Positions 19,101 through 22,130 of a stretch of 64,000 nt of DNA are shown one piece after another. Both the position numbers and the translations under genes were made by a program. Where the stretch lies: assembly GCA_963693285.1 (NCBI GenBank), contig OY848925.1, positions 5,062,932-5,126,931 on the forward strand. Direction: 5' to 3'. Position 1 is the first letter of the stretch. Each line of letters opens with the position of its first letter. Origin of the DNA: Xestospongia muta. Lineage: Eukaryota > Porifera > Demospongiae > Haplosclerida > Petrosiidae. Below the pieces are notes generated by a model. It made no database searches. It was not told where the DNA came from and was given only the letters and a program-made list of their open reading frames with translations.

Positions 19101-22100
19101 AATATTAATTACAAATGAAAAACCACCTGTAGAATTACAAAGGTTTCTCCTCTAAAAGGTTGTGTTCATTTATTTTTTACTTACCATACAATCTAAACTG
19201 TCTACAAACAACAGCTGCATCTCTGGGATCCCAGTTATTAGCACATACTGCTGTGTGTTGATTGTCAATACAAACAACTACAGTACGAATGAAATTACTA
19301 TCTCCAATTAACTGCACTAGGCCACTTTCACACACTAAAGAAAATAATCATGAAATATAAATACATTACAATGAAATGATATTTTAATAATACAATGTCT
19401 CTTCAGGAGATTGCATTAGCTGATGTCTGCAAGAAGTCTTTTAAATTTGAAAAGACTCTCTCAAATGAAGAACTTTGAATTCAAAAACAATCGAGTATAT
19501 GGAAATTGCATTACATTGCCTTTTGAATAACAAATTGATATGACCAACTGAGCTACATAAAATTTAAATACTAAAAATAGAATGATACTATTTATAGACA
19601 ATACATACTGCCATCATGGAGGTCAACTCACCACATCCTACAATTTAAAAAGAAATATCAAATACAGGTCATAACCCTTTCATTCTGACCTTGTTCCTGT
19701 CCTGTAGAATTTCTTCTTCCAACACATGAGGATGGAGGAGGTCCTTGCAGTGATTGACCTTCGTGACAAGTAAGACATTTGTCTGAGGCATTAACTGCTG
19801 AACATGTGGCACAAGATTTATGACACACTGAAAACAAAAAGATAACAAAAATATTAAAAGCTAAGCTATAAGTCAATTCTCTTTACATGGAGGAGGAATT
19901 TGGCTTGGAGTGATAATAGTATGTCTGTCATAGTGTAAAAGCAGTGTAGTGATGGGTGGACATTCTAAAAATAATCCTCGATACTCTATTAGTTCATTTT
20001 CCCTGCACCAAACATCAGTACCTGTAAAATGCAGTTAGACTTAAAGCTGCATATTATGTGGTTTTATTTAGTTTACCATTGATGGTGACATAGTAAGCTA
20101 GCAATCCTGACTGAGGTTCTTTTACAATAGTCACTGTTAAACAAATGGGCTCATAATCACATTGATTTGTAGTATAACGGAAGCAACGAGATCGATTGTC
20201 CCGAGTTTGAAGAAGAGGGACTCCTGAAAATTGTAATAATGAAATAACATTATTTTCCATATGGTCTTGTAGCAGTCACATTACTAGACAACAGAGTACC
20301 TGATATATTAACAAATGACAGACAAGTATCCATAGCATCTACAATAGCTGGAACCAAACAGCCATCATAGAACCGAGAAGAAGAAGGACAAACACTCTAT
20401 AGAATTATTATCATGAACTACTTCAAGTTTTAGTCTATTTACTTTAGTCAGCAGATCTGGAGTACATTGATGGTAACCCTCAGTAACATCACAGAGGTAT
20501 GGATAGGTTTTTGGATTATTACAAGACTGCAGGACAAAATCACATCCAAGACCTGCCACAAATCAGTTTAAATAGCACATTTTATGAATAATACCTCTTC
20601 CCCAGGTGAGATTAAATTGACGAGCAGATAGTTGTGAAGTGACAGTATAGTTTACTTTGTACCATCCAGAGTCTTCAAATAAGGCCCATGTAAAATTGCT
20701 ATAAACTTGATAGTCTCTGTAAGAATAATCAGAACAGCATCATTACTAAGAGAGTATGAGGTTTACCCTAATAGAAAAGCTCCCATTAGTTCATGTGTCA
20801 AGACACGAGCCTCCCAATGAGAACTACAAAAATAAACATCAAGTCACTGATATGTATCTGTATATATTACTTAGCAGAACCAGATCCTCCACCATTTTCT
20901 AATGGAACATATTCCAAATTAGGACAATCAAAGTATTCTCTAGCAACTTCCAATAACTATAGAATACATCAGTACTAATAATAGTACTAATAAAGATATA
21001 CTTTACCTTTGGTGAGGTCAGTCCTAGTATAGGCTCTCCATTGTATTCAAAAATGTCTGTTGCATTATAAAAGTTCAATTCTCCATCATGAAAACTATGA
21101 TAAATCTATTCCATACCATACCTAATGTAATCTGAAACATACCTATCAAAAAGATTGTCAGAAAAGCCAAAGGCATGAGTAAGCTCATGTATCAACACAT
21201 TAAACTGTTGGTCATATGTTTTAAGCTCTCTGAAATTCTGTTATAAAGAAAGTGCAATTATCAATGACATTTATAATATGTGTATTACTGATGGACAGAT
21301 GACGATAATACCAAAGGCAGGACGATGGAAATCATCCTGGGCACATGCTAAAGCTGCAGCAATTGCACCTGGACTGCAGAATTCTGAAAAATATAAATTA
21401 AAATTAGACACTATATTATGTTTGCATTACATATACCTTCAAAAGACACAACCTGCAAAAAGTAATCTATATCAGCACCATAACCATTAGGCCCTTCCAT
21501 TTGACAAGGTCCTGTCTCATTCCTACATGCTTCTCTAGTACCTAGAAAATGAGTAGACATTCCTAATAATAAAGATCCCTCCAGTTCAGGACAAAGAAAG
21601 GAATTGTTAGAAACAGTTCCTGAATAACATTTCCCTTTGTTGGGACCATCTTCAATTTCGTCACAGGCTGGTGGGAGTGTGAAATTGCCAGGAATTCGCC
21701 GAGCCAATAAAGCATGAGAGAGAACATTTATTGCAGCATACAATGGTCCATTAGAGTCACCAATAATTGCAAACTCTGGAAATCTTGTAACAGAGTCATC
21801 AACAACAGTGTGGACTCGTATCGGAGCATATTCTGTATCTTCTCTTTTGAAAGGCTTATCTGCTTTCCTTTGAATATATGGTAGATTCTTTGCTTGGAAC
21901 TGGAGGAAAATGGAATGATATTTAAGATATTATTCATCTAGCATCATATTCTCTTACTGGTAATGCACAAACTAAGTCATTTACTTAGCATTATAAAAGT
22001 AAATGCATCTAACCTTATCATGAATGCAGGTACCTCCTTCTTGAATGTTCTCAGTATCAAAATCTATATGTCCATCTGCAGGGACAGTGCATATAAGAAT

Positions 22101-22130
22101 AGCCACCAGTGGTATCACTGGTAGCTGCAT
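1..22130 (-). CDS. M8 (leishmanolysin-like) metallopeptidase fused to SRCR array, gene A; 3' part off the window
   Basis: This is a multi-exon gene read right to left. The start ATG at 22,130-22,128 opens a hydrophobic signal peptide ([20 protein letters not shown]). The first exons are 22,014-22,130, 21,437-21,899, 21,289-21,383 and 21,143-21,237, with matching phases. They encode an M8 zinc peptidase with an intact HExxHxxGF motif. A short Cys-rich domain follows, then many SRCR domains, mostly split over two phase-1 exons. I see no stop or new signal peptide between the peptidase and the first SRCR exon (19,193-19,335), whose phase fits, so I call one fusion gene rather than two. The product should be secreted; SRCR domains bind proteins or polyanions. 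The gene is a tandem paralogue of gene B and runs off the left edge. The main uncertainty is whether all exons join in a single transcript. Confidence 0.8.
480..5600 (-). repeat. 1,774-bp higher-order repeat within the SRCR array, gene A
   Basis: Two distinguishable versions of the 887-bp unit alternate, so near-identical sequence recurs at 1,774 bp (for example 567, 2,341 and 4,115; 765, 2,539 and 4,313; 1,199, 2,973 and 4,747). About 2.9 copies are present. The pattern stops near 5.6 kb, where the next unit is of the wrong version. Gene B's array shows no such dimer, so the amplification looks younger than the large duplication. Confidence 0.8.
7230..12980 (-). other. Divergent SRCR-like block with Pro/Thr linkers, gene A
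   Basis: Successive half-domain exons keep the SRCR cysteine spacing but not the usual core (for example [12 protein letters not shown]..., CTYGDVQIF..., CYEGSLNIG...). Two linker exons encode Pro/Thr/Ser-rich mucin-like spacers ([19 protein letters not shown] at 12.90-12.98 kb; [15 protein letters not shown] at 10.53-10.59 kb), and a third, shorter Pro-rich start lies near 8.16 kb. The order of subtypes repeats about every 2.4 kb. One SRCR type (11.12-11.49 kb and 8.69-9.05 kb) is not split by an intron. In copy A a conserved Cys is Phe at about 8,505; copy B keeps Cys at 41,444-41,446. Confidence 0.7.
13139..13206 (-). pseudogene. Fossil SRCR 3'-half exon, gene A
   Basis: Minus-strand translation gives [19 protein letters not shown], a clear relative of the functional end [18 protein letters not shown], and it keeps a GT donor. 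Upstream the frame meets a stop (TAA) and there is no recognisable acceptor, so this is a truncated leftover exon. The same relic is present in copy B at about 46,082-46,149, so it predates the large duplication. Confidence 0.6.
13750..16805 (-). other. About 3.06 kb of SRCR exons present in gene A but not in gene B
   Basis: Alignable positions between the copies shift from an offset of 32,943 (13,746 versus 46,689) to 29,887 (16,802 versus 46,689). Gene B therefore lacks roughly 3,056 bp. The A-only segment contains one or two classical SRCR domains and two B/A-type SRCR units (14.39-16.15 kb). The ends lie within homologous SRCR exons, so exact limits cannot be fixed. Gain in A or loss in B are both possible. 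Confidence 0.75.
15935..16147 (-). other. Chimeric exon: Pro/Thr linker start joined to a B-type SRCR half
   Basis: The 5' splice edge and first codons (DTTPSP) match the start of the Thr/Pro linker exon at 12,980. After CTCCT the exon continues as a B-type SRCR 5' half ([18 protein letters not shown]...). The intron upstream (16.15-16.25 kb) also matches the intron upstream of the linker exon (12.98-13.09 kb). The CTCCT shared by both parents is the likely recombination point. The fused exon stays open with phase 1 at both ends. Confidence 0.75.
19632..19637 (-). other. Possible 6-nt microexon, gene A
   Basis: On the minus strand the six bases GATGTG are flanked by an AG acceptor (preceded by a T-rich tract) and a GTGAGT donor. 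Inclusion would add two residues without changing phase, because both neighbouring exons meet in phase 1. It is preserved in copy B at 49,519-49,524. It is inferred from splice signals only. The rest of the 19,336-19,695 interval appears to be intron. Confidence 0.3.
19696..20226 (-). other. Cys-rich linker after the peptidase, gene A
   Basis: Three exons follow the M8 core. The last (about 19,696-19,828) encodes a furin-like or GF-receptor-like cysteine repeat ([20 protein letters not shown]) and a Pro/Ser/Gln-rich tail. It connects the peptidase to the first SRCR domain. Copy B has Gly in place of Ala after CHKSC. Confidence 0.65.
20231..22130 (-). other. M8 leishmanolysin-like peptidase domain of gene A
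   Basis: The zinc motif HELTHAFGF lies at 21,189-21,163, with ligand histidines and catalytic Glu present. Downstream, near 20.8 kb, SSHWEARVL supplies the expected third His ligand, followed by HELMGAF with the likely Met-turn. The segment GWYKVNY near 20.7 kb and the W-G-R-G-L-G-C-D-F-V stretch split across 20.55-20.6 kb match the C-terminal part of animal leishmanolysin-like (LMLN) peptidases. A very short intron of about 46 bp (roughly 20,394-20,440) separates the Cys-containing exons; reading straight through it hits a stop. All catalytic residues I can place are intact, so the enzyme is predicted active. Substrate is unknown. Confidence 0.85.

Follow-up and report, generated by a model that had tools for sequence, protein, structure and literature searches.

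In a stretch of 64,000 nt of contig OY848925.1 from the sponge Xestospongia muta (C9:5062932-5126931 in a genome of 158 Mb and 28 contigs; hereafter the window), a leishmanolysin-like metalloprotease of the M8 family and a very long array of scavenger receptor cysteine-rich (SRCR) modules are most probably made as one fused protein, a reading to which the sequence leads us to give a probability of about 0.8. That a single secreted M8-SRCR protein results, which is the structural part of the explanation that we favour, is predicted as likely too. The gene copy on which this reading was built, hereafter copy D, lies on the minus strand, and its 5′ part was modelled by hand from splice sites as 15 exons that run from an ATG at 22130 to 18977, all with GT-AG borders, with matching phases and with no stop over 673 codons. 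The order encoded, all of it in frame, is a leader, the M8 domain, a cysteine-rich module and the first SRCR module, so that the claim of an earlier note on this DNA, an unbroken reading frame from a signal peptide via M8 and a cysteine-rich linker into SRCR exons, is borne out. The span that the note had assigned to the gene (19190..22130) does contain such exons, yet it covers only the 5′ part, since copy D runs past the left edge of the window and its gene model ends some 8.2-8.5 kb outside it.

The protease and its probable connection to the array

The M8 domain of copy D is apparently intact, and protease activity is predicted from its conserved residues. Pfam recognises Peptidase_M8 at residues 181-414 (E 7.9e-39), and the protein matches the leishmanolysin structure PDB 1lml (E 4.3e-20) with the active-site region aligned; HELTHAFGF and a downstream SHWE lie where the earlier note had placed them. 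In an alignment of six M8 proteins (copy D, its paralogue elsewhere in the genome and four of 41 distinct database proteins), H242, E243, H246, G249, H317 and M328 are invariant in all six. These residues include the HEXXH zinc motif with its following glycine (HELTHAFG), the third zinc histidine, H317, which lies 68 positions past G249 and aligns with that of 1lml, and the methionine of the Met-turn, M328; the corresponding spacing of the third histidine in Leishmania is 62, according to the consulted part of PMC11957388. Moreover, the propeptide encoded in exon 1 contains TCIHD, a putative cysteine-switch motif, the equivalent of which in gp63 is named HRCIHD in the same source.

Evidence for a continuous gene comes in part from comparison of tandem copies. 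The leader exon occurs at six loci in tandem (A, B, C, D, E and X), 17 to 34 kb apart, two of which lie within the window, D partially at the left edge and E completely. All 15 exons are present at five of the loci, and A, C, D and E read through their N-terminal exons without interruption. In every one of the five M8-bearing copies, exons 13 to 15 have the same lengths and the donor of exon 13 and the acceptor of exon 14 are conserved, and no copy has an AATAAA in intron 13, the joint between the two parts; this signal lies at most about 55 nt past the stop at the three gene ends examined, namely those of E, of D (paralogous to the former) and of a neighbouring HECT-domain gene. In this line, locus X (C9:4990796 to ~4976850, minus strand, outside the window) links exon 1 plus the opening part of exon 2, in mid-exon, to a later SRCR exon, again in frame; its model has 57 exons and 3498 residues, and the catalytic part of M8 is missing.

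Several observations weigh against the fusion. AATAAA is present in just 8 of the 112 introns modelled for E and in 11 of the 128 modelled for D; with the signal so rare in introns, its absence from intron 13 is weak evidence. The fused chain scores 3750.7 and the best sum of two split chains 3751.8, the extra start and stop of the latter being uncosted; alike as they are, these scores do not decide. Intron 13 (354 to 356 bp across copies, 355 in D) is the longest of the 14 introns in the hand model and carries an ATTAAA near its end in all five copies, and several of the 70 ATGs tested as starts for a separate SRCR gene give a hydrophobic core. The deletion in X may instead have brought two genes together, the chance of an in-frame junction being 1 in 3, and the frame of copy B is broken. 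A second M8 gene of this genome speaks for the fusion in that its finder model also extends into SRCR (see below), but an AATAAA at L043:6182-6187, in an intron before its NIDO exons, leaves room for a gene border, so its support is weaker than it appears. That M8 and SRCR share a single transcript is a prediction from the genomic sequence. The divergence of intron 13, similar to that of other introns in the four of ten copy pairs examined, is ordinary, and a hidden border is therefore neither shown nor excluded by it.

These points bear above all on the possibility that two genes lie side by side, the first for a secreted M8 protease on its own, ending past the cysteine-rich module, and the second, with a start of its own, for the SRCR array. 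Such an arrangement has a precedent in the sponge Dysidea avara, whose leishmanolysin-like protein P0001 is a stand-alone M8 protein and contains this cysteine-rich module too, and would suit both the similar scores and the long intron with its ATTAAA. We nevertheless regard it as unlikely, because the joint lacks AATAAA in 5/5 copies and the junction of X is in frame, because the M8 part would lack the hydrophobic tail with which the Dysidea protein ends, and because the two best-scoring leader-like SRCR starts (19351 and 19366) would drop the first strand of SRCR module 1, the best-scoring start overall (19614) having a weak core (1.41 vs 3.22 for the exon 1 leader). The tail that is read when exon 13 continues into the intron up to a stop has the same letters in four of five copies and is not kept in copy A, which again argues against a gene ending there. 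That same tail, identical in those four copies, would fit a further scenario of alternative transcripts from one locus, in which a short M8 form, terminated within intron 13, would accompany the long M8-SRCR form. This scenario, compatible with the fusion, is quite improbable, given the different tail of copy A and the lack of AATAAA after it in any copy; if it were true, recognition and cutting could be made together or apart. Altogether, fusion, as the earlier note proposed, is the best-supported reading through the joint kept in 5/5 copies, the in-frame X and the missing AATAAA, with the reservations that fused and split scores are nearly equal and that the recognition-effector role attached to it is one that we infer.

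The SRCR array

Downstream of the joint, Pfam finds the first SRCR module of copy D at residues 602-672 (E 2.5e-8), and the array that follows can be seen in full in copy E. When E itself and D serve as the training set, the model of E comprises 113 exons and 6390 residues, with ends at 25582 and 25528 in a tie; training on D only gives 112 exons and the end at 25582. In the latter case the chain of E scores 3118, whereas the opposite strand reaches 395 and four 2-mer block shuffles reach 321-432, the control chains being the best of up to 25 ATGs within the first 3 kb; D and E being similar, training on D is not fully independent for E. Free gene finding merged neighbouring genes, and the finder models were then fixed at the ATG. 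They include a small extra exon in intron 13 and exons down to 8 nt in E, and lack a portion of one array exon. For the joint we used the hand model, and the finder models only for lengths, ends and module counts. One candidate end for exon 3, at CCTTTG, was dropped because it puts later exons out of frame, the donor at CCATCA keeping both the frame and the M8 homology.

A local hidden Markov model (HMM) gave 54, 52, 48, 59, 51 and 29 SRCR hits on the finder models of A, B, C, D, E and X, respectively, to be read with one hit subtracted in B, C, D and E, where one module is split into two, and with A as incomplete at its end. The resulting numbers are ~50 modules in E and ~58 in D, where the earlier note had given about fifty. 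Within residues 1-2130 of the E array, Pfam assigns 14 stretches of PF00530 (E 9e-208) and four of SRCR_2, and the whole E model contains 436 cysteines. The stop of E at 25582 directly follows the last SRCR module, with AATAAA ~55 nt further, and no stretch of 19 residues in the six copy models exceeds the leader in hydrophobicity (the A model, limited at C9:4946100, is without its 3′ end). On these two grounds the array protein has, by hydropathy, no transmembrane segment, and the product would be secreted.

A tandem family and a second M8 gene

In copy B, exon 12 (C9:5020887-5021019) lacks 2 nt relative to the other copies, which breaks the frame, for which a pseudogene and a sequence error are both possible. 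For M8 exons 1-12, the ratios of nonsynonymous to synonymous substitution rates (dN/dS) of A vs C, D and E are 0.31, 0.16 and 0.19; those of C-D, C-E and D-E are 0.44, 0.73 and 0.44, from only 15, 14 and 5 differences, and the comparisons of copy B with A, C, D and E, over exons 1 to 11 only, give 0.24 to 0.32. The M8 exons thus appear to be under purifying selection. Taken separately, the linker or SRCR module 1 yields 0.19-1.31 where defined, with at most 9 differences each, and up to 1.68 (B-D) when both are combined, values that are uninformative.

The few differing sites between D and E in the N-terminal exons could also be expected from an assembly artefact in which haplotype copies were stacked in tandem, the family being smaller than it appears. 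We consider this very unlikely, as array lengths differ among copies, synonymous divergence in the M8 exons reaches ~7% in comparisons with A, and the units of B, C and D carry a truncated 3′ piece of the HECT-domain gene (among matches of at least 1500 bp, the match of A stops at the end of that gene and X falls beyond this cut-off). An artefact of this kind leaves the M8-SRCR joint untouched.

The second M8 gene, from L043:2109 to L046:50 (C9:5156109-5164050, plus strand), shares 38% identity with D across 564 aligned positions. Its 30-exon finder model encodes M8, the same cysteine-rich module, a NIDO domain (E 1.2e-30) and one SRCR (E 1.4e-10), the Pfam query having left out two tiny exons, and also Ser/Thr-rich repeats. 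Further M8 loci were located on C5 (0.71-0.75 and 0.90-0.92 Mb) and C1 (27.45-27.48 Mb and 9.90 Mb), where no SRCR was found within the 20 pieces of ~3 kb and two of 8 kb examined.

Table 1. Location of the gene copies and associated features in the window
Feature	Position	Strand	Basis
Copy D, exon 1: signal peptide (leader) plus propeptide containing the putative cysteine-switch motif CIHD	22014..22130	-	hand model; hydropathy peak; motif vs consulted part of PMC11957388
Copy D, exon 2: propeptide, M8 start	21437..21899	-	hand model
Copy D, exon 3: M8	21289..21383	-	hand model
Copy D, exon 4: zinc motif HELTHAFGF	21143..21237	-	hand model; 1lml match; alignment
Copy D, exon 5: M8	21007..21094	-	hand model
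Copy D, exon 6: M8	20871..20956	-	hand model
Copy D, exon 7: third zinc histidine (in SHWE), Met-turn Met	20767..20823	-	hand model; 1lml match; alignment
Copy D, exon 8: M8	20595..20716	-	hand model
Copy D, exon 9: M8	20443..20552	-	hand model
Copy D, exon 10: C-terminal part, M8 region	20300..20396	-	hand model; alignment to paralogue
Copy D, exon 11: C-terminal part, M8 region	20077..20223	-	hand model; alignment to paralogue
Copy D, exon 12: C-terminal part, M8 region	19887..20021	-	hand model; alignment to paralogue
Copy D, exon 13: cysteine-rich module CHKSCATC...CLTC, phase 1 at both sides	19690..19827	-	hand model; module also in Dysidea P0001 and second M8 gene
Copy D, intron 13: joint of M8/cysteine-rich part and SRCR array; 355 bp, no AATAAA	19335..19689	-	copy comparison
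Copy D, exon 14: SRCR module 1, first half	19185..19334	-	hand model; Pfam
Copy D, exon 15: SRCR module 1, second half	18977..19096	-	hand model; Pfam
Copy D, SRCR array, running past the left edge of the window	1..18923	-	gene model, open reading frames, module HMM; start of next exon read from sequence
Truncated 3′ piece of HECT gene in tandem unit, upstream of copy D	22631..24820	-	upper limit estimated by eye
Copy E, whole gene, with the 15 N-terminal exons of D plus ~50 SRCR modules; TAA at 25582	25582..52017	-	gene models, module HMM

Neighbouring features

The HECT-domain gene, which we take to be AREL1-like, extends on the minus strand from window position 52518 to ~56000 and beyond, with a HECT match (E 3e-9) in the exon at 55098-55601; an open reading frame at 61197-61598, perhaps part of it, has no Pfam match. 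A presenilin-like exon lies on the plus strand at 63176-63472 (E 2.5e-8, just under the curated cut-off). Outside the window, L046 (C9:5164001-5174000) contains a tandemly repeated gene that carries a WYTGHGEKN ... DCSYSGN motif, for which a caspase-like reading was dropped in view of the absence of any Pfam match.

Relation to known proteins

A search among 5.77 billion proteins, which needed shared exact words and covered lengths of ~605-1925, 1430-4550 and 2745-8732 residues, gave 42 matching rows (37 + 4 + 1; 41 distinct proteins), and M8 and SRCR occur together in none of them among the lengths covered. One of the rows, P0039 from Amphiura, has SRCR without M8. The best match is the Dysidea avara peptidase P0001 (655 aa; 32% identity over 51% of the query), which shares with copy D the leader, the CIHD motif, the M8 domain and the cysteine-rich module, and differs from it in having M8 as its only Pfam domain and a hydrophobic segment at its end. 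Animal proteins of the LMLN type (e.g., P0009 and P0027) have the M8 core in common with copy D and no SRCR in precomputed Pfam annotation. Proteases joined to SRCR are known from vertebrates, such as neurotrypsin and complement factor I, where the enzyme is of the trypsin type and the SRCR modules are far fewer. The Leishmania enzyme gp63 is not known to carry SRCR, nor DMBT1 a protease domain. The latter is a secreted multi-SRCR protein that binds pathogens, as described in the part of the literature consulted. With gp63 (1lml), copy D shares an aligned zinc site and Met-turn and the cysteine-switch motif; gp63 differs in being a GPI (glycosylphosphatidylinositol)-anchored protist surface enzyme, as presented in the consulted part of PMC11957388. 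In the sponge Amphimedon, for which the available part of PMC10855680 counts 296 SRCR genes and lists astacin among the partner domains, protease and SRCR are likewise combined, with astacin instead of M8; the main text of that paper has no word starting with leishmanolysin or peptidase, and its supplementary tables could still list an M8 partner. Leishmanolysin paired with SRCR was not found in the open-licence literature searched either. SRCR-bearing proteases are thus a known kind, within which M8 plus SRCR is a new combination. The earlier proposal of a new recognition-effector architecture is thus partly supported: the architecture is likely and the pairing is absent from the 42 matching rows, and the function is a prediction.

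Possible roles of the proposed fused protein

The gene would encode a secreted zymogen in which the C-terminus of an M8 metalloprotease was replaced by a very long SRCR array via phase-1 exon joining. Secretion and latency are suggested by the leader and the cysteine-switch motif, the propeptide presumably keeping the M8 enzyme latent. The array may bind repeated ligands many times over, most likely microbial or matrix surfaces, a multivalent binding proposed on account of the reported behaviour of SRCR arrays elsewhere, and could in this way concentrate the protease at bound surfaces; copy X would be the same binder without the enzyme. In its widest form, which we advance as a tentative proposal held with less than even confidence, the locus would be a tandem, length-varying family of soluble, protease-armed recognition proteins, each with a latent M8 enzyme and an array of ~47 to 58 SRCR modules. 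In-frame deletion would have produced X as an enzyme-free sister, binding specificity would change by duplication of SRCR exons while purifying selection maintains the effector, and the second, older M8 gene with NIDO and SRCR would point to more than one origin or retention of the pairing.

The protein could also be an adhesion or matrix-remodelling enzyme instead of an immune one, its SRCR modules binding aggregation or matrix partners of the sponge and its M8 domain trimming them, a role compatible with the fused structure. A putative sponge aggregation receptor made of SRCR domains was reportedly described by Blumbach in 1998, a study cited in PMC4704026. The available part of PMC4704026, a paper not directly on these genes, includes aggregation and cell-cell recognition among SRCR roles, which makes adhesion or matrix remodelling a real rival, albeit a rather doubtful one, since sponge SRCR genes respond to microbial stimuli according to the consulted part of PMC6208332, which does not deal directly with these genes either. 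In that source, the response comprised one SRCR gene in Aplysina aerophoba and none in Dysidea avara, which responded via NLR genes.

In the available parts of PMC10855680 and PMC6208332, the SRCR families of sponges are described as greatly expanded and are treated chiefly as receptors. If the reading of a single protease-armed protein is true, a secreted SRCR member with a built-in metalloprotease would give recognition a direct effector, with an output testable as binding plus cutting, and the tandem copies of unequal array length, together with one enzyme-free copy, would offer a natural comparison.

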